Positions 8,691 to 47,070 of a stretch of 47,070 nt of DNA are shown here, one piece after another. The position numbers were made by a program, and so were the translations under genes. Each line of letters opens with the position of its first letter. The first letter of the stretch is position 1. The notes under the pieces are model-generated. The model was not told the origin of the DNA. It did not search any database and worked only from the letters and a program-made list of their open reading frames with translations. The DNA is from Acidobacteria bacterium 13_1_20CM_3_53_8 (GTDB taxonomy: Bacteria; Acidobacteriota; Blastocatellia; Pyrinomonadales; Pyrinomonadaceae): assembly GCA_001920415.1 (NCBI GenBank), contig MNJR01000015.1, positions 3,410 to 50,479 of the forward strand, given 5' to 3'.

Positions 8691-9029
8691 GAAGAGCAAG
8701 TAGGAAAGCGGAAGGATGAGAGATGAAAGAATAGTTACTTTAAGCCCGCGCAAGCGGGCGACAGCATAAAGCCCAGTGCGTTAGCACTGGGTAAAGATGG
8801 TAATTAAAATTAACGAAGCCCGCGTTAGCGGGCGACAGTGCGTAGTAATCAAAGGGCTGTCGCTATCTCCGATAGCTCTATTATTTTCTTGCTATCTCTA
8901 ACCCAGCCCTGACGGGCTGGGCTTTATTCTGTCGCCCGCTTGCGCGGGCTTAAACCCAAGTTTGCGTAAGATGAGTTACTCATCTTGAATAGCTACTGTT
9001 TCATCCTTCCGCCTTCCGCCTTGCTCTTC
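8691..9029. repeat. Composite nested inverted-repeat cassette D
   Basis: The outer arms are purine-rich (GAAGAGCAAG at 8691-8700 against CTTGCTCTTC at 9020-9029) and extend inward imperfectly through GAAGGATGA. Inside lie two oppositely oriented copies of a 51-nt double-hairpin unit, at 8742-8792 (+) and 8901-8951 (-). Each has a GC-rich hairpin, the linker GACAG(C/A)ATAAA and a second hairpin. Between them are a half-unit (about 8816-8837) and a GCTATC hairpin (about 8857-8877). Loops are GCAA, GTTA and GTCA. The cassette fills the region between the divergent DUF1992 and recG genes. Related cassettes lie at 19781-19989 and 38111-38465. Confidence 0.88.
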
Positions 9030-12829: not shown

Positions 12830-13122
12830 AAAGAGAAGGGGAAAAGGGGAAGAATCAGGCAGTCAGTTAATACTAGGAGTTACGCAGTTGAACGAACAAG
12901 TCAGTACCGCCTGCGGTAGCGGGCGGGTCTGTTAGCAAAGTCAAAAGTAAAAAGGTAAAAGTGAGAAGAAGCCAATCTTTTTATTTGCCTTTTTACTTTT
13001 GACTTCTTCACCCGCCCGCTACCGCAGGCGGTACTGACAAGGCTTGCGCTTTTCTGTCAACTGCGTAACTCCTAAATACATCTACCTTTTACCCATTTAC
13101 CCTTTTCCCCCTTCTCTTTTCA
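12827..13122. repeat. Four concentric inverted repeats of different families
   Basis: From outside in: (1) a purine arm 12827-12849 (GAAAAGAGAAGGGGAAAAGG) against about 13100-13122; (2) a perfect 18-bp pair, 12874-12891 (TAGGAGTTACGCAGTTGA) with 13057-13074; (3) a perfect 29-bp GC-rich pair, 12900-12928 with 13010-13038; (4) an inner AAGTCAAAAGTAAAAAGG arm (about 12938-12962) with about 12983-13005, one mismatch. All share nearly the same centre. Layer 3 recurs alone at 13743-13838, and layer 4 belongs to the AAAAGGC family seen at 27.65, 45.6 and 46.95 kb. No gene is evident inside. Confidence 0.93.
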
Positions 13123-13742: not shown

Positions 13743-13838
13743 GTCAGTACCGCCTGCGGTAGCGGGCGGGTGTAATGTGCTTTGTGACTAGCTTGCAAAT
13801 CAAACCACGACCCGCCCGCTACCGCAGGCGGTACTGAC
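13743..13838. repeat. 29-bp perfect inverted repeat between the two rsmD genes
   Basis: 13743-13771 and 13810-13838 are exact reverse complements (GTCAGTACCGCCTGCGGTAG...) around a 38-nt loop. The arms are identical to layer 3 of the nest at 12900-13038, while the loop is unrelated. The right arm ends nine bases before the GTG start of the second rsmD, so the hairpin would cover its leader and could affect its translation. Confidence 0.95.
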
Positions 13839-19780: not shown

Positions 19781-19989
19781 AGCCGCTGAAGGCGGCGGCA
19801 GCATAAAGCCCAGTGCGAAAGCACTGGGAATAGAGTTGGAGTATGAAGAGCGAGCTATCGAAGACGAGCGACAGCCCATTATCTATCAAACGTCTGTTGC
19901 CCATTTCATGGGCTTCGGTAATCTTTATCGCTATCTGTTCCCGGCGCTTACGCACCGGGCTTTATGCTGTCGCCCACTCGCGTGGGCTT
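19781..19989. repeat. Composite inverted-repeat cassette J
   Basis: Two oppositely oriented double-hairpin units lie at 19781-19829 (+) and about 19940-19989 (-). Each has a hairpin, GGCAGCATAAA or GACAGCATAAA, and a second CCCAG/CTGGG or CCGG/CCGG-type hairpin. Loops include GAAA (CAGTGC-GAAA-GCACTG), GTAA and GCGA when read in unit orientation. A GCTATCGAAGACGAGCGACAG hairpin and its counterpart sit between them. The purine outer arms seen at 8691 and 38111 are not evident here. The cassette fills the gap between the GAF and kinase genes. Confidence 0.85.
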
Positions 19990-26839: not shown

Positions 26840-27673
26840 ATGTCACAACTTAGCCCCGAACAATTAGCGAGATATGAACGCAATGGCTTTCTGGTGATTG
26901 AAGATTTCTGTAAGGCTTCGGACTGCGAACGGTTGCGTGCGCGCGTTGAGGTGCTGGTCGCAGAGTTCGACCCAAGAGTTGTCTCAATCTTTTCCACGCG
27001 CCAGCAGACGCGTTCGAGCGATGAATATTTTTTGGAATCAGGCGATAAGATTCGCTTCTTTTTCGAGGAAGAGGCGTTCGGCGCGGAAGGAAATTTGCGC
27101 GAGCCGAAGGAGCACTCGATTAACAAGATAGGCCACGCGCTCCATGATCTCGATCCTGTCTTCAAAGAATTTTCCCTAAACCCTGAACTGGTAGAGTTGG
27201 TCGTGGATTTAGGATTCTCGCGCCCGCTTATCTTGCAGTCCATGTACATCTTCAAGCAGCCGGGCATTGGCGGCGAAGTCACATGCCATCAGGACGCGAC
27301 GTTTCTCTACACAGAGCCGCTCGGCTCTGTCGTCGGTCTATGGTTCGCGCTCGAAGATGCCACGCGCGAGAACGGTTGTCTGTGGGCAATTCCCGGCGGT
27401 CACAAAATTGGACTCAAATCTCGCTTCGTTCGCGCGCCGGAAGGCGGAACTCGCTTTGAGATTTTTGATGACAGCGCATGGCCGCTCGATCAACTCGTGC
27501 CGTTGGAAGTTAAGAAAGGCGCGCTCATAGTCCTGCACAGTCTTCTACCGCACATGAGCCACGCCAACAGATCAACGAAATCACGCCACGCCTACACGCT
27601 ACATTTCATGGAGAGCGACTGCCACTACGCTTCGGACAACTGGCTGCAAAGAAAGGCAAAAGTAAAAAGGTAA
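26840..27673 (+). CDS. Phytanoyl-CoA dioxygenase (PhyH) family protein
   Basis: A 277-residue Fe(II)/2-oxoglutarate-dependent oxygenase. The iron-binding His-x-Asp is in TCHQDATFLY (about residues 152-161), and the distal His and 2-oxoglutarate-binding Arg are in LHSLLPHMSHANRSTKSRHA (about 237-256). The N-terminal YERNGFLVIEDFC opening is typical of PhyH. The substrate cannot be read from the sequence. The last residues (RKAKVKR) and the TAA stop are encoded by the AAAAGGC repeat arm that begins at 27651, so the original C-terminus may have been replaced. It converges on dnaJ. Confidence 0.9.
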   Translation: MSQLSPEQLARYERNGFLVIEDFCKASDCERLRARVEVLVAEFDPRVVSIFSTRQQTRSSDEYFLESGDKIRFFFEEEAFGAEGNLREPKEHSINKIGHALHDLDPVFKEFSLNPELVELVVDLGFSRPLILQSMYIFKQPGIGGEVTCHQDATFLYTEPLGSVVGLWFALEDATRENGCLWAIPGGHKIGLKSRFVRAPEGGTRFEIFDDSAWPLDQLVPLEVKKGALIVLHSLLPHMSHANRSTKSRHAYTLHFMESDCHYASDNWLQRKAKVKR

Positions 27674-27774
27674 AAGGTAAAAGGAAGGCTGAAACCAGCT
27701 TTTAATAAAATTTTGGCTTCCCCTCACTTTTGCCTTTTTACTTTTACCTTTTGCCTTCCCTTTACTTTTGCCTT
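27651..27774. repeat. Inverted repeat, AAAAGGC heptamer family, between phyH-like gene and dnaJ
   Basis: The left arm, about 27651-27698 (GGCAAAAGTAAAAAGGTAAAA and further units), pairs with the right arm, about 27715-27774 (units CTTTTGCCTTTTTACTTTTA). The loop is about 16-20 nt. The phyH-like stop codon lies in the left arm and the dnaJ stop codon touches the end of the right arm, so the two convergent genes meet in one hairpin that could end transcription from both sides. Confidence 0.88.
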
Positions 27775-31182: not shown

Positions 31183-31270
31183 AGTGCAGAATGCAGAGTG
31201 ATGAGTGATGAATTAAAACAAAGAAGTTCTTCTCTTATCATTCATCACTCTGCACTCTGCACTCATCACT
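31183..31270. repeat. Inverted repeat, GATGAGT heptamer family
   Basis: The left arm (31183-31214, CAGAGTGATGAGTGATGAATT) pairs with the right arm (about 31238-31270, ATTCATCACTCTGCACTCTGCACTC in part). The units are GATGAGT/GATGAAT and GCAGAGT/GCAGAAT. The loop is about 23 nt. It separates grpE and dnaK and would form a hairpin in the polycistronic mRNA. Confidence 0.88.
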
Positions 31271-35041: not shown

Positions 35042-35605
35042 ATGGCTATACCGGCAACACAGATTAGGCGCGGGATGGTTATCCTCTTCGAGGGACAGCC
35101 CTGCAAAGTTATTGAATTCCGTCACCACACGCCCGGCAACTTGCGCGCTATGGTTCAGACGAAGCTACGCAACATTCGCACGGGTTCGACGTTCGAGCAC
35201 AGGTTTCGCTCTGCGGATACAGTCGAGCGCGCAAATCTCGAACAGCACGAGATGGAGTATCTCTATTCTGACGGCTCGCATCATCATTTCATGAACACGG
35301 AGAATTACGAGCAGATAGGATTGAGCGCAGACGATCTGGGCGATGCGGTCGAGTGGCTGACGCCGGGGCTTAAGATTCAGACGGAGTTTTACGAAGGCGC
35401 ACCCATAGGCATTGATCTACCTCCTTCTATGGAGTTAACGGTCGTCCAGACAGAGCCGTCGCTCAAAGGCGCGACCGTCTCGAACGTCAACAAACCGGCG
35501 ACGCTCGAAAATGGCGCGACCGTTCAAGTCCCACCCTTCATAAACGAAGGCGACCGCATACGAGTTGACCCGCGCGAAGGGCGCTACATCGAAAGAGCAA
35601 AGTAA
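35042..35605 (+). CDS. efp: Elongation factor P
   Basis: EF-P rescues ribosomes stalled at polyproline. The 187-residue protein has three OB/KOW-like domains: the start [20 protein letters not shown], the domain I loop [15 protein letters not shown], and the end [20 protein letters not shown]. The loop-tip residue aligned with modified Lys34 of the E. coli protein is Asn33 here, so beta-lysylation at that position is excluded. GGAG lies about 12 bases before the ATG. The stop is followed at once by the repeat at 35609. Confidence 0.96.
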
Positions 35606-35608
35606 GAA

Positions 35609-35697
35609 GAGCAGTTTTCAGTTTTTAGTTTTCAGTTTTCAGTAAAAACTTTCTTCTTCTATCTGAAAACTGAAAACTAAAAACTAAAAACTGTCCT
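35609..35697. repeat. Inverted repeat, TTTTCAG heptamer family (copy P)
   Basis: The left arm (35609-35642, units TTTTCAG/TTTTTAG) pairs with the right arm (about 35663-35695, units CTGAAAA/CTAAAAA). The loop GTAAAAACTTTCTTCTTCT is the reverse complement of the loop in the copy at 42630-42731. It lies between efp and waaA. Confidence 0.93.
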
Positions 35698-35705
35698 TAT
35701 CACTC

Positions 35706-37070
35706 ATGTATTTTCTTTACAGTTTCCTGTACACCGTCGGCGTTGTGCTGCTATCGCCCGTAGCAGTTTACAAGGCGTTGAGGTATGGAAAGTATGTGAC
35801 TGGTCTTGGCGAGAGGTTGGGCAAGCTCCCTGAGATTAATGTTGGTGGAAAGCCAGTAATCTGGCTGCACTGTGTTTCTGTAGGAGAAGCGCAGGCCGCT
35901 CGTCCGCTCGTCAAATTGCTTGCAGAAGAATATCTTCAGCACGCGATTGTCGTCTCGACGATAACGCTGACGGGCAATCGCATGGCGCGCGAGCTTTTCG
36001 GCCAGACTGCTGTAAAAATCATCTACTTCCCTTTCGATTGGGCGTGGACTGTGAGACGCGCTCTGCTCAAAGTTAACCCTTGCGCAGTGCTCATCATGGA
36101 GACGGAGTTGTGGCCGCGTTTTCTGTTTGAATGCAGTAGGCGTGGCGTTCCAGTCGGTCTGGTCAACGGAAGAATTTCCCAAAAATCTTTTCGCCGCTAT
36201 CAACGGATTCAAAGCTTCATCAATCGCATAGTAAATAATCTAGACCTCGCGCTCATGCAATCGAGCGCGGACGCAGAACGTATGCTTCGACTTGGACTCT
36301 CCCAGAAACGTGTGAAGATTTCAGGCAACATGAAATTTGATGTCGGCGCTTCCGCAAATGAAGAGAAGCTTGTTGGCGAGCTTTCTCAAAGATTCTTTTC
36401 TGGTGAAGAGCGTCCGCTCATCGTGGCGGCGAGCACGCACGCGCCCGAAGAGCGGATTACTATTGAAGCATTCCGTCAGCTTCGCAAAAACGGTACGAGC
36501 GCGCACAGACTTTTGATTGCGCCGCGCCACCCCGAACGTTTCGCTGAAGTGGAATCGCTCATAGCGCAATCGGGCTTTACGTGGGCCAAGCGCTCCGCTT
36601 CTCCTTCTGCGAGCGACAAAACCTGTGACATTATTCTTCTGGATTCAATAGGCGAGTTGCGCGCTATCTATTCTCTAGCCGAAATCGTTTTCGTTGGCGG
36701 AAGCCTAGCCCCTACGGGCGGTCACAACGTGCTGGAGCCAGCGTCAGCAGGCGCGTGCATCGTCACAGGCCCGCATACTTCAAACTTTGCTGCAATCATA
36801 AAAGGTTTTCGGGAGAATCAAGCGCTCGTTGAAATAGCCGACTTGCCGGAAGCAGAATCGGTCGGCGCGCTTGCGAAACTTTTTGAGGAATTACTTGCTG
36901 ACGAAGAACGGCGCAAATCTCTAGCGGCAAACGCGCGCGCGGTGCTCGAAGCAAACAGGGGCGCGACCCGTAAGACTTTGAATCTTCTAACTCCAATTTT
37001 AGCTCAGTCATCCAACACTCCCTTGCTGTCTCAAACCGAACGCGCGCAGCACGGTGCGCTCTCTTCATGA
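35706..37070 (+). CDS. waaA: 3-deoxy-D-manno-octulosonic acid (Kdo) transferase WaaA
   Basis: WaaA attaches Kdo to lipid A precursors at the inner membrane. The 454-residue GT30 enzyme has an N-terminal membrane anchor (YFLYSFLYTVGVVLLSPVAV), the conserved WLHCVSVGEAQAARPLV, METELWPRF, GNMKFD, and GSLAPTGGHNVLEPASAG near the nucleotide-binding end. It is complete and overlaps lpxK by four bases (ATGA). No good ribosome site precedes the ATG, which lies just after the TTTTCAG repeat. Confidence 0.95.
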   Translation: MYFLYSFLYTVGVVLLSPVAVYKALRYGKYVTGLGERLGKLPEINVGGKPVIWLHCVSVGEAQAARPLVKLLAEEYLQHAIVVSTITLTGNRMARELFGQTAVKIIYFPFDWAWTVRRALLKVNPCAVLIMETELWPRFLFECSRRGVPVGLVNGRISQKSFRRYQRIQSFINRIVNNLDLALMQSSADAERMLRLGLSQKRVKISGNMKFDVGASANEEKLVGELSQRFFSGEERPLIVAASTHAPEERITIEAFRQLRKNGTSAHRLLIAPRHPERFAEVESLIAQSGFTWAKRSASPSASDKTCDIILLDSIGELRAIYSLAEIVFVGGSLAPTGGHNVLEPASAGACIVTGPHTSNFAAIIKGFRENQALVEIADLPEAESVGALAKLFEELLADEERRKSLAANARAVLEANRGATRKTLNLLTPILAQSSNTPLLSQTERAQHGALSS

Positions 37071-38122
37071 GTTCGACTGCGACAATTTTGTTAGCACCTC
37101 TGGGCGCGCTCTACAGCGCAGCGACAAGAGCGCGCCTCAGTCTATACCGCGCAGGTGCGCTCAAAGTTTACGACCTTGGCGCGCCGACCATAAGCGTAGG
37201 GAACATCACGGCGGGCGGCACGGGCAAGACCCCTATGGTCGAATGGGTCGCGCGAGTTCTGGCAGATGAAGGGCTGCGCGTCTGCATACTAACGCGCGGT
37301 TATGCGCGCGCCGACGTGCGCAAGAGAGTGGTTGTCTCGGATAGCGAGCGTGTTCTCGCTTCGGCGCGCGAGGGTGGCGATGAGCCTCGCATGCTGGCTG
37401 AGAAACTAAAGGGTAAGGCTGCTGTCATCAGTGACAGAGACCGCGTTGATGCTGGACTTTGGGCCAAAGAGAATTTTCACAGCGACGCTTTCATACTCGA
37501 TGACGGATTCCAGCATCTGCGCGTGGCGCGCAACCTGAACATAGTTATAGTTGATGCCACGAACCCGTGGGGCGGCGGAAAGCTTTTGCCACGCGGACGC
37601 TTGCGCGAGCCAAAGCGTGGCCTTGCGCGCGCAGATTGCGTCATCATCACGCGCGCGGATCAAACTTCTAATCTCGACGCGCTGCGCGAAGAGATTAAGA
37701 TTTTGAGCGGGAGCAAGCCCGACTTCATCTCACGCACAGAAACGGCTGGACTCAAGACTCTACTAGACGAAGAGGATGAGTCTGACGCAAGCGCGGCAGC
37801 CGTTGCTCAACCTGTTGGCGCGTTTTGTGCTATAGGGAATCCGCGACAATTTTTTTCTCAGATTGAGGTCGAAGGATACCAGCTTGCCTTCACGCGCTCT
37901 TTCCCGGATCACCATTTCTACTCGCAGCGCGACATTGATGCTCTTGTAAATGAAGCACGCTCAAGCGGCGCGCTCTCTCTAATCACTACGGCGAAGGATG
38001 CAGTTAAACTTAATGAGCTAAGTTTCGATCTGCCCTGTTTCGTGCTTGAGATTGAGATGAGATTTGAAGATGAAGACGGAATCCTCAAAATGATCTTGAG
38101 AGCGATGATGAAGAGCAAGTAG
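37067..38122 (+). CDS. lpxK: Tetraacyldisaccharide 4'-kinase LpxK
   Basis: LpxK phosphorylates the 4' position of the lipid A disaccharide. The 351-residue protein has the Walker A motif NITAGGTGKTP (about residues 46-56), ILTRGYARADVRKRVVVSD, DDGFQHLRVARNLNIVIVDA and SFPDHHFY. An ATGA overlap couples it to waaA. The last residues (MKSK) and the TAG stop come from the purine arm of cassette X, which suggests the native C-terminus has been altered. The gene confirms a Gram-negative outer membrane. Confidence 0.95.
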   Translation: MSSTATILLAPLGALYSAATRARLSLYRAGALKVYDLGAPTISVGNITAGGTGKTPMVEWVARVLADEGLRVCILTRGYARADVRKRVVVSDSERVLASAREGGDEPRMLAEKLKGKAAVISDRDRVDAGLWAKENFHSDAFILDDGFQHLRVARNLNIVIVDATNPWGGGKLLPRGRLREPKRGLARADCVIITRADQTSNLDALREEIKILSGSKPDFISRTETAGLKTLLDEEDESDASAAAVAQPVGAFCAIGNPRQFFSQIEVEGYQLAFTRSFPDHHFYSQRDIDALVNEARSSGALSLITTAKDAVKLNELSFDLPCFVLEIEMRFEDEDGILKMILRAMMKSK

Positions 38123-38465
38123 GAAGGCGTAAGGATGAAAGACAAGCTATTCAAGATGAGTAATGCATCATAAGCGGTTAGAAGTTTTCAGCCGTCGAAG
38201 ACGGCGACAGCATAAAGCCCAGCACGTAAGTGCTGGGTTTGAGTTGGAAAATAAGAATTGAGCTATCGAAGATAGCGACAGCCGTTTGATTATTATGGGC
38301 TGTCGCCCGCTCACGCGGGCTTTGGTAATCTTACTGCTATCTTTATCCCAGCGCTTACGCACTGGGCTTTATGCTGTCGCCCACTCGCGTGGGCTTAAAC
38401 CCAGATTTGCATAAGATGAGAATTATTCTTTCATCCTCCACCCCTTATCCTTCATCCTTGCTCTT
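38111..38465. repeat. Composite nested inverted-repeat cassette X
   Basis: The purine outer arms (AAGAGCAAG at 38111-38119 against CTTGCTCTT at 38457-38465) extend inward through GGATGAAAG-like blocks. Two opposite double-hairpin units lie at 38190-38237 (+) and about 38347-38396 (-), each with the GACAGCATAAA linker. Between them are a GCTATCGAAGATAGCGACAG hairpin and a half-unit (CCCGC-TCAC-GCGGG). The loops read in unit orientation are GTAA, GCGA and GTGA. Both flanking genes, lpxK (+) and the kinase (-), end within the outer arms. Confidence 0.9.
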
Positions 38466-40169
38466 AGTCGGCTGTACAAGCGGCGAACTGTCTGTGTTTG
38501 ACGGCTGCGGCAACTGTCTGGGTGTGGGCGATGGCGCTTCTCTTTGCTGAGGCGTTGCGGCAGGCTCCTGCGACTCGGCGGGCGAAGGAAGTGGGCGCGG
38601 CGTCGGGCTACTTTTTGTCTGTGGCGAATCGCTTGGCTTCTGCTGCGGCTCAGGAGACGGCGGCGCTTGCTCCTGCTGCGGGTTCTCGTTTCCCTGAGTA
38701 TTCTCTACGGACGGCTCAGGCTGACCGGGCGGACGAGTCTCGCCGGGATTGGCGGTTGCGGGGATTGCGCCGTTCGCGTTTGTTGTGACAGAAGGAACGA
38801 CCGCAGGAGCCGCAGGCAAAATTCCCTGCTCGCCCTGCCCCGTTGCGGGCGGCGCAGGTTGAACCGGGCGACCGTTCCGGTCAACAGGCATAGGCTGCGT
38901 GTTAGCGTTCGTCGCAGGCGCGTTTGAGTTTCGCCAGGAAGAGACTGCGTAGATGACTGCGAAGAGAACTAGTAAGCCAGCGAAAGCGGGAATGACTATG
39001 CGCCATGGATTGAAGCTTGATGCGGGCGCTGTTTCGACAGCCATCATCTTTTCATTAAGCGGAAGAGGAGCGCTAGTCTCTCTGGGTCTGACAACTGTCT
39101 CCTCATCGTCAGCTTCGCTGATCGTAGTTCTTGCAGCTTCGCTCTCGCCTGTCGGTACGACTATGCGGCTTGTAGAGCGTTGAGGCGTGTCCGGCACTGT
39201 GTCCGCTGCGGCGGCAGCGACAATCGGCGACTCTTCGGCTGCCAGGTTGAGCGCTTCTACGAGTTGGCTTGCCGATTGGTAACGATCTTCTGGACGCTTC
39301 GCCAAAGCTCGCGCTACGACCTTGTCAACCGCCGCAGGCAAATCCCTTCGCTCTTCAAGAACGGAAGGCGGCGGCTCTTGAAGATGCTTCATCATGATAG
39401 CCGTAGGGGATTCGCCCGTGAAAGGCACGTGGCCGACTAGCATCTCGTAAAGAATCACGCCCAAGCTGTAGATGTCAGAGCGCGCGTCAATGTCTGCGGC
39501 CTGCGAGCATTGTTCGGGCGACATGTATTGCGGCGTGCCGATTATCAGGTTCGGTGAAGTGAGCGCGGGGTCTTGCTCTATTGGCTGCACAATCTTCGCA
39601 ATTCCGAAATCCAGGACTTTAGCCCAATCTCCTTCGCCGCCCATGTCAACGAGCATTATGTTGTCGCTTTTGAGATCGCGATGCACAACGCCCTGCGAGT
39701 GCGCTTCGTCTAGCGCGCCGCTCACCTGCTTGATGATTTCAGTAGCGCGCGGCAGGGTTAGCGAGCCTTCTTCGTGTATGACCTCTTTGAGCGTGCGCCC
39801 GCGCAGGTACTCCATCACTAGAAAGACGATTCCGTTTTCTGCCTCGCCAAAATCCGTAACGCTCAGCGCGTGCGGGTGCGAGATTCTGGAAGCGGCCTTG
39901 GCCTCGCGCGTAAACCGGGCAACTATTTTGTCGTCTGCCGCAAGCGCCGGATGAAGAACTTTGATGGCGACAGTCTTGTCCATAAGCACATGCGTGCCGC
40001 GATAAACTGCGCCCATACCTCCACGATTCAGAAGCTCTTCTATACGATATTTGTCCGCGAGAGTGCGGCCTATGAGGTCGTCGCTGGTCTTCTCCAGAAC
40101 CGCGCCGTCAGACGGACACAAAGTGTTAGCGTCTTCGTATTCACGTCCACACTTTGGACACTTCTTCAT
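38445..40169 (-). CDS. Membrane Ser/Thr protein kinase with N-terminal zinc ribbon
   Basis: A 574-residue protein from the ATG at 40169 (MKKCPKCGREYED). It has a zinc ribbon (CPKCG...LCPSDG), then a Hanks-type kinase: LLNRGGMGAVYRG, AIKVLHPAL, HRDLKSDNIM, VLDFGIAK, MSPEQCSQ. A juxtamembrane region, one membrane helix (IVIPAFAGLLVLFAVIYAVSS) and a Pro/Gln/Asn-rich extracytoplasmic tail follow. All catalytic motifs are intact (Lys, HRD, DFG). The substrate is unknown. The end of the tail (TKSKDEG and stop) is encoded by the right arm of cassette X. An upstream TTG start at 40193 is less likely. Confidence 0.92.
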   Translation of the reverse strand: MKKCPKCGREYEDANTLCPSDGAVLEKTSDDLIGRTLADKYRIEELLNRGGMGAVYRGTHVLMDKTVAIKVLHPALAADDKIVARFTREAKAASRISHPHALSVTDFGEAENGIVFLVMEYLRGRTLKEVIHEEGSLTLPRATEIIKQVSGALDEAHSQGVVHRDLKSDNIMLVDMGGEGDWAKVLDFGIAKIVQPIEQDPALTSPNLIIGTPQYMSPEQCSQAADIDARSDIYSLGVILYEMLVGHVPFTGESPTAIMMKHLQEPPPSVLEERRDLPAAVDKVVARALAKRPEDRYQSASQLVEALNLAAEESPIVAAAAADTVPDTPQRSTSRIVVPTGESEAARTTISEADDEETVVRPRETSAPLPLNEKMMAVETAPASSFNPWRIVIPAFAGLLVLFAVIYAVSSWRNSNAPATNANTQPMPVDRNGRPVQPAPPATGQGEQGILPAAPAVVPSVTTNANGAIPATANPGETRPPGQPEPSVENTQGNENPQQEQAPPSPEPQQKPSDSPQTKSSPTPRPLPSPAESQEPAATPQQREAPSPTPRQLPQPSNTDSSPLVQPTKSKDEG

Positions 40170-40292
40170 CCGCCCATACCGCCTTGCACACAACTAATTT
40201 TTCGGAAAATGTGGCCTGAGCGTAGCACAAATGATGGCAAAAAGAAAAAGCTATTCATCGGGACTTTCGACTCAGCGCACGAGGAGAAAATT

Positions 40293-40430
40293 AAGGGATG
40301 AAAGAAGCAAGGAGGGGTAAAAGGGGAAAGGGGAAAAGGGGAAAAGGGGAAAGGAAAGGCTAATTGTCTTCTCCTTTTTCCCTCTTACCCTCTTACCCAT
40401 TTCCCCCTTCTTGCTTCTTTCATCCCTCTT
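40293..40430. repeat. Long purine/pyrimidine inverted repeat (AAAGGGG units)
   Basis: The left arm (about 40293-40341, AAGGGATGAAAGAAGCAAGG then GGGGTAAAAGGGG units) pairs with the right arm (about 40380-40430, ending TTGCTTCTTTCATCCCTCTT). The ends are almost perfect; the centre is slippery tandem AAAAGGGG. It lies between the LecA-like gene stop (40432) and the kinase start. Confidence 0.9.
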
Positions 40431-40431
40431 C

Positions 40432-41589
40432 TCAGTATCTGTTGTACTGCGGGAAAGTTATCCTCACGGTAAATTGCCCGCTGTTGTCGCTGTAGTTGTC
40501 GTCGTTGACGAGCAATATCAAACGACCATCTACGGGCGTGGTGAACGTCTGGTTGCTACCGATGAGGAACGGTTGAGACGCCTGTCCGTTCGTCAATCGT
40601 ATGTAGCCAATGAGCGCTCCGACGCCAGCATTAGGCACAGGATAAGTTCCGAAGATCGCGCCTGCACCGGCGCGTCCGCCGTCCGGTGTCACTTCTCCGG
40701 CACGTCGTCCGGCCACTATGCTGCCCGTCGCAGAGATTGCCACCTGATCGCCAGAGCGAAGGTCAATCCCTGTGTCAGTCCCGCGCGAATTGCCCGGCAC
40801 GTTGATTGTGGTTTCGTTCGTTCTGCCATAGCCGACCGACGAGCCTACTGCGCTATCGTTCGGCAGGCGCGGGCGAACAGGCGCAGGCTGGTTTGAGCCG
40901 TTGACACCAAATGGATCGTTGTCATTGATGTTTTCATCGTTACGGTTGTAGGTATCGTTCCTATTGTAAGCGCCGTTCCCGTTACCTCGACCCAACACGG
41001 CGTTGAGGTCTATCTCGCGGCGAATCTCTGCGCGGTACGAGCCGCGCGCATCCGAGTAGCCAGCGCGGTTGATTGTCAGGTACAGTCGCCCGGCGCGATC
41101 AGCAACGAACTCGCGGTTCGCGCCGATTTCAATGATAGGCGCATTCGGATCGTTCCCTACTACACCTATGAGAACGCCTTCGGACGCGCGAGGCAGCGGC
41201 GCATTCGGGTCTGTGCGACCGGTTCCGTTTGGCGTGATTCGCATTCGCCCGGCATAGATGACGCCGGAAGCATTGACGCGAACGCGCTCGCCCTGGCGCA
41301 AATCAACGCCCGTGTCAACCCAGTTCTGTCCCAGTTCGACATCCACCGTGCGGTTAACGAAACGCGCTTCGTCAATCGAGCGCCCTTCTATCTCAATCCG
41401 ATCAATCTGGTTTGGACGCAGAAAGATTATGTCGTTATTCAGATAGTCCACGCGCACAACGAAACGTCCCTGAACGAAACCCAGCACCGTGCCGCGAACG
41501 GTTCTTCCGTCTCGCAGGTAGATTGTGTCAGCCGCTGCGAACGTCGCAGCCATTAACGTGATAACCAAAGCAAGAATGATTCTCTTCAT
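40432..41589 (-). CDS. Secreted protein with two LecA (PA-IL)-like beta-sandwich repeats
   Basis: A 385-residue protein with a signal peptide (MKRIILALVITLMAATFAAA) and a short N-terminal domain (TIYLRDGRTVRGTVLGFVQG). Two similar modules follow, each opening with a pattern such as NWVDTGVDLRQGERVRVNAS or SRGTDTGIDLRSGDQVAISA, then GAL(I/L)G and YLTINR or LILLVNDDNYSDN, ending GxFxVRI. This matches the PA-IL/LecA-type galactose-binding fold; sugar binding is not established. An Asn-rich linker joins the modules. GGAGGAG lies upstream of the ATG. The gap 41590-41934 contains no gene I can support. Confidence 0.8.
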   Translation of the reverse strand: MKRIILALVITLMAATFAAADTIYLRDGRTVRGTVLGFVQGRFVVRVDYLNNDIIFLRPNQIDRIEIEGRSIDEARFVNRTVDVELGQNWVDTGVDLRQGERVRVNASGVIYAGRMRITPNGTGRTDPNAPLPRASEGVLIGVVGNDPNAPIIEIGANREFVADRAGRLYLTINRAGYSDARGSYRAEIRREIDLNAVLGRGNGNGAYNRNDTYNRNDENINDNDPFGVNGSNQPAPVRPRLPNDSAVGSSVGYGRTNETTINVPGNSRGTDTGIDLRSGDQVAISATGSIVAGRRAGEVTPDGGRAGAGAIFGTYPVPNAGVGALIGYIRLTNGQASQPFLIGSNQTFTTPVDGRLILLVNDDNYSDNSGQFTVRITFPQYNRY

Positions 41590-41934
41590 GATCTACTCTC
41601 CTCCTTCAGCGATTAACCGCGCATGAGGGAAGCTACCGATTTATGCTACTTGCGCGCGGGGAATTACTATAGTCGCAAGCAGAGGCGACTCTGTCTCGCG
41701 TCGCAAACTTTTTGATGGGGGAATTAATCGAATCTGGGAGAGACGTGCGTCAGGAGTCTTAAAAGCGCTCGTGACAACTCTTGTGGGGAACTTTCATGCA
41801 AAGGTTACACCTAAAAAACAGGCCGGGCAAGAAGGTCACAGAAACGAGATGGAGATTTCATACTAAAACCGCCTTTTTTCATAACGGACGTGTCCGGTTC
41901 ACACTGCTTCGCAAGAAAATCTTTAGACAAACAC

Positions 41935-41972
41935 AAAAAAGAGCCGCGAGAAAGATTAAGTTCTCGCAGCTC
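41935..41972 (-). terminator. Intrinsic terminator of the ATP synthase Fo operon (after atpE)
   Basis: On the minus strand GAGCTGCGAGAA pairs with TTCTCGCGGCTC (41972-41961 with 41952-41941), one mismatch, followed by TTTTTTG. It lies 28 bases past the atpE stop. Confidence 0.88.
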
Positions 41973-41999
41973 TCTTCTTATCTCTTCCGCTCTGTTTTG

Positions 42000-42323
42000 C
42001 TACGCCCTGGTAAACACAACGAGCAGCGCGAAGAGTACAAGCGATTCGATGAGCGCCAGTCCTAGAATCATCATCGTCTGTATGCGGCCCGCTGCGCCTG
42101 GGTTACGCGCCGCGCCTTCTACGGCAGCAGCCGCGATACGCGACTGGCCTATTGCGCCTCCGGCGACAGCGATGGCGAAGCCGAACACCGCAGCAATCGC
42201 TTTGTATTTGCTTACGGAGAAGCTGTTGTCTCCGACTTCTGTTCCTGCGCCTTGCGCGAACGCAGTCATCGTCATCATCAGGATACCGACGATCACGAAG
42301 AAAATGTTTCTCAACTTGTTCAT
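42000..42323 (-). CDS. atpE: ATP synthase Fo subunit c
   Basis: The ring-forming proteolipid of F1Fo ATP synthase. The 107-residue protein begins with an extra hydrophobic leader (MNKLRNIFFVIVGILMMTMT), which may be a cleaved signal, then two c-subunit helices: AAVFGFAIAVAGGAIGQSR and the loop VEGAARNPGAAGRIQ followed by MILGLALIESLVLF. The carboxylate that binds the ion is the Glu of LALIES. A Gln (GAIGQ) and a Ser next to the Glu resemble the sodium-type ligand set, but the Thr after Ser is missing, so coupling ion is uncertain. GGAGGA 7 bases before ATG 42323 fixes the start. The frame stays open upstream of it, but those codons lack a ribosome site. Confidence 0.95.
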   Translation of the reverse strand: MNKLRNIFFVIVGILMMTMTAFAQGAGTEVGDNSFSVSKYKAIAAVFGFAIAVAGGAIGQSRIAAAAVEGAARNPGAAGRIQTMMILGLALIESLVLFALLVVFTRA

Positions 42324-42413
42324 CTTGATTCCTCCGAAACTTTTTAGTCTTCTCTTACGGGAAGAATTTCGGGCGACGGCGCGAGATTGAAGTAGAGAGT
42401 CCGGCACTGTCCG

Positions 42414-42593
42414 TTATGATTTCGCCGACACCCGGTATTCCAGCCGCCCCTCGTACAACGGCGCTCCAGCGATGTCGAGCATATGAAGCGTTTTCCCTTC
42501 GGCGGGAGATATAATGAGCCGACCTCTAAATTTTTCCCGAACCTCTCTTCCCTTCAATTTCAAATCCCTTCGCTTCAACGTGCGCGAGCGCAT
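42414..42593 (-). CDS. Possible 59-residue basic protein in the atpB-atpE gap, unknown
   Basis: An open frame from ATG 42593 encodes a basic N-terminal half (RSRTLKRRDLKLKGREVREK) and a mixed C-terminal half (LIISPAEGKTLHMLDIAG). It lies on the same strand as the atp genes between atpB and atpE. There is no recognised family and no strong ribosome site. I list it because the 400-bp gap in an otherwise compact operon is otherwise unexplained apart from the repeat at 42630. Confidence 0.25.
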   Translation of the reverse strand: MRSRTLKRRDLKLKGREVREKFRGRLIISPAEGKTLHMLDIAGAPLYEGRLEYRVSAKS

Positions 42594-42629
42594 CTGCCCG
42601 CGCCGCTCGAAAGCGATTAAAAGCAGTGA

Positions 42630-42731
42630 TAAGAGCAGTTTTCAGTTTTTAGTTTTCAGTTTTCAGTTTTCAGATAGAAGAAGAAAGTTTTTACTTAAAA
42701 CTGAAAACTAAAAACTGAAAACTGCTCTTAT
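42630..42731. repeat. Inverted repeat, TTTTCAG heptamer family (copy Q)
   Basis: The left arm (about 42630-42672, units TTTTCAG/TTTTTAG) pairs with the right arm (about 42694-42731, units CTGAAAA/CTAAAAA). The loop AGAAGAAGAAAGTTTTTAC is the reverse complement of the loop of copy P at 35609-35697, so the two are the same element in opposite orientation. The TAA of atpB lies in its right arm. Confidence 0.94.
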
Positions 42732-43581
42732 GTCAGCACTGGAACAATAAACTCTTCGCTCTCGTCGTCAGCGTGCCCGTGCTCGCGTTGCGAGTCGTGG
42801 GGCGGGTGCGAGACCTCGCTGACGTAGATCGTGGAGAGCAGTATAAAGACGAAAGTTTGAATGAACGCGATCAAAAGACCCAACGGCATCAAAATTATGG
42901 GGATGAGCCAATAGGTGACGGGCGGGAAGATGGTGGCGAAAAGCTCTGCGACCTTCTCGTCCGCGAACATGTTTCCGAAAAGACGTATGCCGAGCGAGAA
43001 CGGGCGCACAAAGTTGCTTATCAGTTCTATGGGGAAGATCAACCAGCCTATCCACCAGATAGGTCCTGCGAAGTGCTTCAGGTGGCCCAACAGCCCGTTC
43101 TCTTTAACTCCGATGTAGTTGTAATAGATGAACGAAGTTATCCCTAGCGCGAAGGTGACGCTCGTCGCAGACGTTGGGGCCATGAAGAGCGGGAACATAT
43201 AATGTCTTCGAGCAGGCCGCGAATCGTAAGCACGCTCAGTTCAAGCGTCTGCTGGCCGTGCTCAGGCTCCTCCTGTGAAAGCCGTCCCTTCAGAATCCAG
43301 ATTATCGTCACGCTCAGGATGCACGCGATGATGAACATCACAGTGTACCAGGGTATTGCGTTCTCAGGCGTGTACGGGCCAAACGCCGCTTCTGGCGTCG
43401 TCTCAAATTTTGCAAGAAACCACGTCCAGAACGGGTGGGTGTACTTCATCTCGAAGTCGTAAGCGTACTGGCCCAGATAGTGATTGACGAATTGCACTAT
43501 GATGGGCACATGCTCTGCGCTCGTTTGTGCCTGCTCCGCTCCTTCTGTGGCCGGTTCTACGTGTTGCTGCAACCAGAACAT
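42728..43581 (-). pseudogene. atpB: ATP synthase Fo subunit a, frameshifted with internal deletion
   Basis: The first frame (43581 to about 43205) gives an N-terminal region with a long periplasmic segment, a membrane helix (WYTVMFIIACILSVTIIW) and then the family motif LSVLTIRGLLEDII, after which the frame is lost. The second frame resumes at MFPLFMAPTSATSVTFALG and contains HFAGPIWWIGWLIFPIE, the essential Arg region (RPFSLGIRLFGNMFADE) and the last helices. Normal a subunits have about 27 residues between those points (GP.GR...PL...LFIFI...N), a loop and most of a helix. The missing DNA must be 3n+1 bases. The single-copy essential gene would be inactive as written, so an intact copy elsewhere or an assembly error must be considered. 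Confidence 0.85.
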
Positions 43582-45608: not shown

Positions 45609-45620
45609 GTCTTATTAGAA

Positions 45621-45743
45621 GGCAAAAGTAAAAAGGTAAAAGGCAAAAGTTAGGCGGAAACCACTTTTTAAGATTTAGAGAGAAAGAGTAATAGAATTTC
45701 TTTCATCCTTATCCCTTTTGCCTTTTACCTTTTTACTTTTGCC
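45621..45743. repeat. 29-bp perfect inverted repeat, AAAAGGC heptamer family (T)
   Basis: 45621-45649 and 45715-45743 are exact reverse complements (GGCAAAAGTAAAAAGGTAAA... in part) around a 65-nt AT-rich loop. The stop codon and last residues of the glycosyltransferase come from the right arm. The same 29-mer occurs at 46950-46978. Confidence 0.95.
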
Positions 45744-46944
45744 TTTTCATAATGTCAGTTTCCGTCGGCGATTTCAATTCGTAAGTAAGCCCGCGCCAGA
45801 CGATTTTTTGGGAAAGCGCAGCAGCGATAGCATTATGAAGATAGATGAAAGTCGCAAGCGGCCAGAGGAACAGATGCGCAAACTGTCCGCGCTTTAACCC
45901 TGCGGCGTGCTGAGCCAGAGGCAGTTTTATTGCCCTCCAGCGCACGTATGATTTCGCAATGCCGAGCAAGTAAATTACTATAAGCAAAATAATGGCGATG
46001 AGTACGGGTTTATGTTGAAACGCGCGAGTTGTGACCAAGATGATGCCACCAAAGAAAATTAGAACGAAGAATGCGCTTCCTGCAAAAACAGCTTTCCAGA
46101 GATGCGTGGCATAGACACGCGTGATCTTCAATTGTCGCGTAGTGAATTCCAGAAGCTCTGTGAAGCTGCAATCTTCAAATGAAGCTGTCAGGCAGTCTGG
46201 CACGAAATGAATAGGAAGATGTTCTTGTTGTAAAGCTCGCGTCAGCGCGAAATCGTCCGAGAGAGTTCCGCGCCAGCGCTCGCGCATATTCAATCGCTCG
46301 AAAGTCTCGCGGCGGATTGCTGTAGCGCCTCCCCAGCAGAAATTTTTCTCCCTTTGCGATCCTAATGCTGATGCGATTGAAGCGTTCCAAACAGAGCGCA
46401 TGTGTGACCAAAATCCGCCGCGCACAGGGATGAACCAGCGATACCCGCTCGCCGCTCCGACCGTTTCATCAGCAAGCGGCGCGATGAGTGAACCGAGCCA
46501 ACTCGCGTGCGGTCTCGCGTCGGTGTCAACGAAGACGAGAACTAGGCTCTCAGGATTAATCTCTTTAACGGCTGCGCGCAGGTTATGAACTTTCTGCCCG
46601 CTCTCAGTTGTTACGCCTGCAATGACAACACGCGAGTTAATCGAACGTAAGGATGCAAAATCACTCCTTACTTTTTCAACCAAAGCTAGCGCCGGGTCGT
46701 TTGCGCTGTCTGTGACGAAAAGAATTTCATAGGCCGGATAATCAAGCCGCCATAGAGCGCGCAAATTCTCTTCCAATCCCTGATCCAATCCTCTGCACGG
46801 CGCTATGATGGAAGCTGGCGGGGTGAAGTCTGACCCTTCTTTCTTCATCTCGTGGCGCACGTACTTAAGAAATTCTAGTCCGCCTTTCAGCGAACTGATG
46901 CCGAGCACGACTAGAACGAGAGCGAAGAAATAGAATGCCAACAT
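45733..46944 (-). CDS. Family 2 glycosyltransferase, HpnI/ceramide glucosyltransferase-like
   Basis: A 403-residue membrane glycosyltransferase. An N-terminal helix (AFYFFALVLVVLGISSL) is followed by the GT2 catalytic region: PASIIAPCRGLDQGLEENL, DTDARPHASWLGSL (DxD-like), WGGATAIRRETFERL, LSDDFALTRALQ (the ED/DD motif) and a variant of QxxRW (RQLKITRVY). Three or four helices follow at the C-terminus. This resembles ceramide glucosyltransferase/HpnI-type proteins that glycosylate lipids. The last residues (MKRQK) and stop come from the repeat arm. The neighbouring radical SAM gene suggests a shared lipid-modification role, but this is only a guess. Confidence 0.85.
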   Translation of the reverse strand: MLAFYFFALVLVVLGISSLKGGLEFLKYVRHEMKKEGSDFTPPASIIAPCRGLDQGLEENLRALWRLDYPAYEILFVTDSANDPALALVEKVRSDFASLRSINSRVVIAGVTTESGQKVHNLRAAVKEINPESLVLVFVDTDARPHASWLGSLIAPLADETVGAASGYRWFIPVRGGFWSHMRSVWNASIASALGSQREKNFCWGGATAIRRETFERLNMRERWRGTLSDDFALTRALQQEHLPIHFVPDCLTASFEDCSFTELLEFTTRQLKITRVYATHLWKAVFAGSAFFVLIFFGGIILVTTRAFQHKPVLIAIILLIVIYLLGIAKSYVRWRAIKLPLAQHAAGLKRGQFAHLFLWPLATFIYLHNAIAAALSQKIVWRGLTYELKSPTETDIMKRQK

Positions 46945-46949
46945 AGAAA

Positions 46950-47070
46950 GGCAAAAGTAAAAAGGTAAAAGGCAAAAGTTAGGACAAAGCCTTCGCCTCT
47001 AATTTTTAATTTATAATTCACGCCTGCAAGGCGTGTCCACACTTTTGACTTTTACCTTTTTACTTTTGCC
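46950..47070. repeat. Inverted repeat, AAAAGGC heptamer family (U), to the window edge
   Basis: 46950-46978 (same 29-mer as at 45621-45649) pairs with 47042-47070 with one mismatch. The loop contains a small GCCTGCAAGGC hairpin. The element may extend past the window. Confidence 0.92.

Follow-up and report, generated by a model that had tools for sequence, protein, structure and literature searches.

The stretch of DNA analysed here (the window) comprises 47,070 nucleotides of contig MNJR01000015.1 (positions 3,410 to 50,479) from the draft genome of Acidobacteria bacterium 13_1_20CM_3_53_8 (6,102,709 bases, 155 contigs, 96% complete). It contains two long hairpins with arms built of heptads of the TTTTCAG type, located in two intercistronic gaps, one between efp and waaA and the other between atpB and atpE (Table 1); Pfam matches for all four genes confirmed this location, as given in a first-pass annotation made from the sequence alone. 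Copy 1 spans positions 35612-35693 and has a 20-nt loop, and copy 2 spans positions 42629-42731 and has a 25-nt loop. A 29-nt stretch, GTAAAAACTTTCTTCTTCTATCTGAAAAC, which covers the loop and the inner arm, occurred exactly twice in the window, identical between the copies and in opposite orientation (35642-35670, plus strand; 42666-42694, minus strand). No further window match of this stretch was retrieved at up to three mismatches, and none was expected in 100 shuffles even at three mismatches, whereas an arm 13-mer had 13 window matches at one mismatch or less versus 0.06 expected. This identity is far beyond chance and bears out the annotated hairpins with a common loop in opposite orientation. 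The arms, which had been annotated as shared too, are not identical, since copy 2 equals copy 1 with one additional right-hand heptad and point changes. The RNA folding energies of the window hairpins ranged from -38.6 to -50.1 kcal/mol (z -9.9 to -12.6 versus shuffles), and no Rfam family matched either copy at gathering score. A segmental duplication of the two loci, which would have made mobility unnecessary, was rejected as the source of the pair, as the flanks of about 2 kb had no notable similarity (best match 32 nt, 81%, E 0.048).

The two hairpins belong to a dispersed, lineage-specific family of palindromes, hundreds of copies of which were found genome-wide, in agreement with the dispersed element that had been annotated. 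Copy 1 as a query yielded 336 first-look candidates, 40 of which were scored (88-100% identity in the better orientation). A 24-nt arm had 256 exact matches in the source genome versus one to seven in five of 59 relatives and none in the rest, and a palindrome pattern had 102 matches on each strand (reversed control, none). A first sample of the source genome (834,870 bases) contained 46 arm-like clusters, 39 of them palindromic, and a larger sample (1,634,870 bases) contained 89 palindromic copies. Furthermore, an AAAAGC core between TTTTCAG arms gave 198 overlapping matches in the source genome and 33 in its relative G006, versus at most four in any other of 118 genomes of the same bacterial family (reversed control, at most one). 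These counts of arms and of cores within arms, amplified compared with the relatives, indicate that the palindrome family has expanded in the source lineage.

The loop, annotated as conserved, is not constant in this family; the window loop was common to only these two of the 89 copies. Six loop types of at least 18 nt recurred unchanged in two or more copies, 13 copies being involved in all; for five of these types the copies were on different contigs, and the sixth is the window pair. Copies with identical loops had arms that differed through heptad changes, gains, and losses. Among pairs less than 12 kb apart, loops were within three edits of each other in 10 of 55 cases (4.0 expected, p 0.004), a tendency among neighbours with which the window pair, at a distance of 7 kb, agrees. 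Paired heptads were identical in 235 of 281 cases (0.836), a share that reached no more than 0.813 when partners were shuffled 500 times, indicating that the two arms co-vary. The ends of the family have a common TAAGARC consensus that fades outward, with TAAGARCAG as shared end sequence. The source genome also contains, for example at G000:C24 near 130452, C1 near 141137 and 179095, and C44 near 126172, a diverged relative whose arms are rich in TTAAT (AATTTTTAATCTTTAATTC type) and whose AAAAG..GCTTCTTTCTT loop resembles that of the element.

Heptad repeats of all types were frequent in the source genome. In 1.63 Mb, 615 periodic tracts had period 7, versus 103 with period 8, 55 with period 6, and at most 41 for each remaining period between 4 and 12; a trinucleotide shuffle of 760 kb contained three period-7 tracts. 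An inverted 11-mer partner was present within 200 bp for 504 of the 615 tracts. Of the hairpins with periodic arms, 105 of 127 had period 7 in the first sample; the larger sample held 225 with period 7, 27 with period 8, and seven with period 10, besides 336 hairpins not classed as periodic. The period-7 hairpins were centred outside open reading frames (ORFs) in 210 of 225 cases, placing these tandem heptads in intergenic DNA. Seventy distinct heptads were found in the source genome, the TTTTCAG type being the commonest. In 40-kb samples of 20 other genomes, period-7 tracts led in many (G019, 19 tracts; G134, 14), were lacking in G028, G126, G021, G046, G050, G013, and G020, and were not inverted pairs in G060, G037, G029, and G102.

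That heptad slippage produced similar repeats independently at each site, without any dispersal, is highly improbable. The genome-wide preference for period 7 would suit such convergence, as would the occurrence of the same arm as direct arrays elsewhere. The exact 31-nt arm had at least 11 matches listed in metagenome-assembled genomes (MAGs) outside the source genome, the names among these matches being Pyrinomonadaceae, Acidobacteria gp4, Acidobacteriota, Deltaproteobacteria, Niabella, Chloroflexi, Prevotellaceae, and Bacteroidales. Among the matches listed, the arm was palindromic in the acidobacterial MAGs; in L110, L113, and L114 (Deltaproteobacteria, Chloroflexi, and Prevotellaceae MAGs) it ran in long arrays of directly repeated heptads. 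Yet, convergence is already contradicted by the shared loops, as identical loops of 20-23 nt recur at unrelated sites, and by the genome-specific amplification.

Table 1. Positions of the two TTTTCAG hairpins, their neighbouring genes, and other heptad hairpins in the window
Feature	Position	Strand	Remark
Left arm, copy 1	35612..35642	+	heptads TTTTCAG/TTTTTAG
Loop, copy 1	35643..35662	+	degenerate form of the AAAAGC..GCTTCTT core
Right arm, copy 1	35663..35693	+	inverted heptads
GTGATRA-type heptad remnant	35696..35705	+	immediately outside right arm of copy 1, abuts waaA ATG
One arm, copy 2	42629..42667	+	
Loop region, copy 2	42668..42692	-	same as loop of copy 1, orientation opposite (common stretch 42666-42694)
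Other arm, copy 2	42693..42731	+	outer end includes atpB stop codon 42728-42730
AGTGATAAG, remnant of older GTGATRA-type hairpin	42625..42633	+	GTGATGA (G012) and GTGACAA (G036) hairpins orthologous
efp, upstream of copy 1	35042..35605	+	Pfam
waaA (KDO transferase), downstream of copy 1	35706..37070	+	Pfam
atpB C-terminal part, upstream of copy 2	42728..43198	-	Pfam
atpE frame (subunit c), downstream of copy 2	42000..42407	-	Pfam
Heptad hairpin, TGCAGAR with GTGATGA units	31183..31263	.	
Heptad hairpin, AAAAGGY type	27652..27751	.	
Heptad hairpin, AAAAGGY type	45612..45752	.	
Heptad hairpin, AAAAGGY type	46950..47070	.	at window edge

Further hairpins with repeat arms are present in the window at 40294-40427 (GGGGAAA-like) and 2349-2457 (GACGCGG, period 8). 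Matches of Acido-Lenti-1 (RF01687) at 8902-8950 and 38190-38237 overlap large inverted repeats (8739-8954 and 38203-38381), a similar one of which lies at 19794-19974; the RF01687 family may here be part of a dispersed repeat. Taken with the MAGs that share the exact 31-nt arm, these matches suggest a place near Pyrinomonadaceae for the source organism. The atpB gene appears split (42728-43581), as the PF00119 match of the C-terminal ORF begins only at position 77, the open frame encodes 170 amino acids versus about 300-340 in most relatives, and an ORF of 145 amino acids in a different frame lies directly upstream. This looks like a frameshift, either real or assembly-derived.

The TTTTCAG copies are located almost exclusively between genes. 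Based on simple ORF picks, 85 of the 89 copies were centred outside ORFs of at least 100 amino acids, which make up 85% of the sequence. Co-directional genes flanked 68 of the 83 scored copies (background 856 of 1234), and the preference for convergent genes expected of intrinsic terminators was not found (8 of 83 versus 192 of 1234). The median host gap was 103 bp, which is little above the length of the element. This placement, together with the strong folds and the co-varying arms, would fit an intercistronic RNA structure selected by the host to protect or cut polycistronic mRNA, in which pairing alone is selected and the arm sequence drifts. The retention of some heptad hairpin between efp and waaA in seven of the nine genomes of the clade described below would fit it as well. 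Nevertheless, such selection is quite unlikely as the main explanation, for it leaves unexplained the identical loops at distant sites, the presence of hundreds of copies of the same sequence within a single genome, and the lack of a hairpin at atpB-atpE in most relatives.

Comparison of the same gaps in 29 relatives revealed varied states, including the empty sites proposed for searching in the first-pass annotation. With an arm lag identity of at least 0.75 as threshold, a period-7 hairpin was found between efp and waaA in 10 of the 29 relatives (one locus, L085, stops short of waaA), none of them of the TTTTCAG type; the heptads were GTACTTT, CCAAGTC, ATTTTCC (three times), GTGACAA, TGAGGAC, GTGATGA, CGTCAAT, and GTAATGA. 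Two additional, weaker hairpins occurred at L088 and L089, and the gap was short or empty in the remaining relatives, the extreme being a TAATG stop-start overlap in G126. In a midpoint-rooted tree of three genes, the source genome paired with G006 (support 0.918) inside a clade of nine genomes, seven of which had a period-7 hairpin between efp and waaA, G014 and G035 being below the threshold. In G036, TCACT(T/C)ATGTATTTTC, the context of the remnant at copy 1, adjoins the GTGACAA hairpin. For atpB-atpE, three gaps of which were unmeasurable, a heptad hairpin was found only in G012 (GTGATGA) and G036 (GTGACAA), G002 carried a hairpin of another kind, and the gap was empty in G006 and G025. 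The downstream sequence of the source genome, G012, G036, G006, and G025 is alignable by eye, indicating that this gap is orthologous. G036 and the source genome share its left boundary, ACATAAGAGCAG, although the arms differ. As the same gaps in relatives carry hairpins of other heptads, the place of a hairpin, its loop core, and its arms depend on one another only in part.

An older layer is visible at both window copies, each of which has a GTGATRA-type leftover immediately outside one arm; this is the heptad type that some relatives hold at these gaps. Such a leftover was present on at least one side of 23 of the 89 copies (on both sides of seven) versus one of 354 control pieces from 250-450 bp away. 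Intact nested hairpins were found in other families, namely GTGATRA outside GGTAAAT or TTTCARG, and AGTCTGG outside GATTTTR. A further case of nesting is located at positions 12900-13038 of the window, where a heptad hairpin of the AAAAGGY type sits inside the loop of a REPIN-like hairpin.

The core of about 20 nt, usually a small hairpin itself (AAAAGC..GCTTCTT), is shared by several arm families. Among loops of at most 45 nt, with longer ones left out (for AAAAGGY, 18 of 64 hairpins were within this limit), the hexamer AAAAGC or its complement was present in 42 of 60 loops between TTTTCAG arms, 12 of 18 between GATTTTR, 8 of 12 between AGTCTGG, 5 of 9 between GGTAAAT, 7 of 18 between AAAAGGY, 3 of 7 between TTTCARG, 2 of 5 between GTGATRA, 0 of 1 between GGATGAG, and 3 of 8 between other heptads. 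The background was 184 of 7160 intergenic 25-nt pieces, and non-heptad hairpins contained the hexamer in 6 of 21 (period 8), 0 of 7 (period 10), and 39 of 226 (aperiodic) cases. Moreover, the core occurred between GTGAYRA arms in 35 of the 118 genomes of the bacterial family and 20 of its 29 genera (controls, at most one per genome). Being common to several arm families and genomes, the core is not tied to one arm sequence.

Enzymes that might move or tolerate the palindromes were searched for in the draft assemblies (89-96% complete). A non-autonomous transposon, MITE-like (miniature inverted-repeat transposable element) or REPIN-like, the hairpin of which is recognised by a transposase encoded elsewhere and pasted into intergenic DNA, would account for inverted repeats of about 90 bp in hundreds of intergenic, lineage-specific copies with common TAAGARCAG ends; four Y1_Tnp genes are present in the source genome. 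A simple mobile element with target-site duplications, for which the first-pass annotation proposed to look, was not supported, as no such duplication was found in 60 copies at lengths of 2-9 and offsets of 0-24 (best 3 versus 0.4 expected, over many tests). Single-strand Y1 transposition normally inserts without target duplication, with which this absence is compatible. However, no TTTTCAG hairpin lies within 1.5 kb of any of the four Y1_Tnp loci (DDE-type transposases were not searched); three are without such hairpins, and the remaining one has hairpins that belong to a different family on either side. Furthermore, Y1_Tnp had no match in the 89% complete draft of G006, which has the second-highest number of core-in-arm matches (33), and none in the heptad-rich G134, G034, and G010, versus 13 matches in the heptad-poor G013, the sample of which had no heptad tract. 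With neither linkage to nor co-occurrence with TTTTCAG hairpins, a Y1/RAYT transposase was rejected as the driver, and the transposon explanation as a whole is rather unlikely. In L074 (G000:C23), which belongs to the source genome, a Y1 transposase gene lies between two GTCAGTACCGCCTGCGGTAGCGGGCGGGT hairpins (1288-1380 and 1916-2010), an arrangement as expected of a REPIN/RAYT pair; the window, too, has this hairpin at two places (12900-13038 and 13743-13838). A reverse transcriptase as spreader was rejected too, since RVT_1 had no match in the source genome (96% complete draft). Lastly, loss of SbcCD as a condition permitting palindromes was considered. SbcD (TIGR00619) reached the cut-off in one of 25 genomes of the bacterial family (G001; the source genome was not among them) and four of 15 others of the class. 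The SbcD-positive G001 has a heptad hairpin between efp and waaA, and several SbcD-poor genomes have none in 40 kb, indicating that SbcD status does not track the hairpins and that its absence does not explain them.

These observations document the dispersal of whole units, the differing arms at shared sites, and the layering. From them we infer how the family may have spread, namely that lineage-specific palindromes spread into or over older heptad hairpins, located in short gaps between co-directional genes, probably via hairpin-templated replication or recombination. This reading is preferred tentatively, with a probability somewhat short of even. In each unit, the core of about 20 nt lies between a pair of inverted arrays, each about three to five heptads long. 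The single-stranded hairpin of a unit would be copied as DNA replicates or recombines, by template switching or gene conversion. Heptad hairpins already in place would be the preferred sites, entered or overwritten by the copy, with the result that arms turn over and place and core persist. Seven-base slippage may afterwards lengthen or shorten the arms, and no dedicated transposase would be required. The intercistronic RNA duplex of about 30-40 bp should act as an RNase III site or exonuclease barrier, with any effect of this kind probably secondary. Hairpin-templated copying is favoured because neither target duplication nor linked enzyme was found, the arms co-vary, and seven-base steps occur in most arm families. 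Several observations weigh against it. Firstly, no TTTTCAG tract flanked by two intact GTGATRA tracts was found, and nesting of this family is thus read from remnants. Secondly, inverted repeats in the outer flanks were weakly above shuffles at score 10 (4 versus a mean of 0.67 and a maximum of 3), and at score 8 there were 5 versus a shuffle maximum of 7. Thirdly, elements with fully matched arms numbered 45, as did the best of 500 shuffles (mean 34.3). Fourthly, the sister genome G006 lacks the atpB hairpin, so that ancestral occupancy of this gap requires loss or parallel insertion. A bolder version of hairpin-templated copying would make all heptad palindromes one evolving system, in which each genome overwrites older hairpins with its favoured heptad, from the centre outward and in seven-base hairpin-templated steps, both arms being rewritten together, and place and core persisting, without transposase or reverse transcriptase; this version is speculative and should be considered unlikely.

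The literature searched (open-licence articles) yielded no account of palindromes with heptad arms from Acidobacteriota, and the TTTTCAG family resembles several known systems in part. The small dispersed repeat (SDR) elements of Nostoc punctiforme, which Elhai et al. are said to have described in 2008, reportedly have a hairpin core of 21-27 nt inside tandem heptamers, with nested insertions and many sites; their heptamers reportedly form direct arrays, and RNA intermediates are said to have been proposed. As in SDR elements so described, a short hairpin core was found to recur here in different heptad contexts. Unlike in them, the heptad arrays on the two sides of the core are inverted, and spread through RNA intermediates finds no counterpart in the 96% complete source draft, which lacks an RVT_1 match. 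Like MITEs, the family is non-coding and dispersed and has inverted arms; unlike MITEs, no target-site duplication was found and the arm sequence is interchangeable. REPIN/RAYT systems, as presented in the cited parts of the sources, also consist of long hairpins that lie between genes and number in the hundreds, but the TTTTCAG family has no linked RAYT gene, and its heptad-array arms lack an inner repetitive extragenic palindromic (REP) sequence (PMC3116915, PMC2817692). The GGGAATC heptads of Xanthomonas come close as intergenic heptad arrays with inverted pairs; according to the sections cited, they are mostly intergenic with about four units, are generally without association with mobile elements, and include convergent inverted pairs as potential hairpins, of which Xcc has 70 and Xac 75, few such pairs being reported in Nostoc (PMC4692102). 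They differ in that these sections describe a single G-rich heptad and no conserved loop core, arm interchange, or nesting (PMC4692102). The TAACTGA repeats of Beggiatoaceae, likewise intergenic, often near start codons, and found also in Gammaproteobacteria, Cyanobacteria, and Bacteroidetes, differ in being direct arrays of a single heptad, with one indirect repeat reported in the portion cited (PMC4679880). Heptad repeats are over-abundant in bacteria and, as far as the cited parts of these studies go, lack an accepted cause (PMC4692102, PMC4679880). In the present case, heptads mostly occur as inverted pairs around a common core, and orthologous gaps are found in varied states, being empty, holding one heptad or another, or being composite. 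With these varied states, questions of how heptads arise and how short palindromes spread become open to tests, both comparative and in culture; if the proposed overwriting is true, a conserved hairpin position could mask complete sequence turnover.

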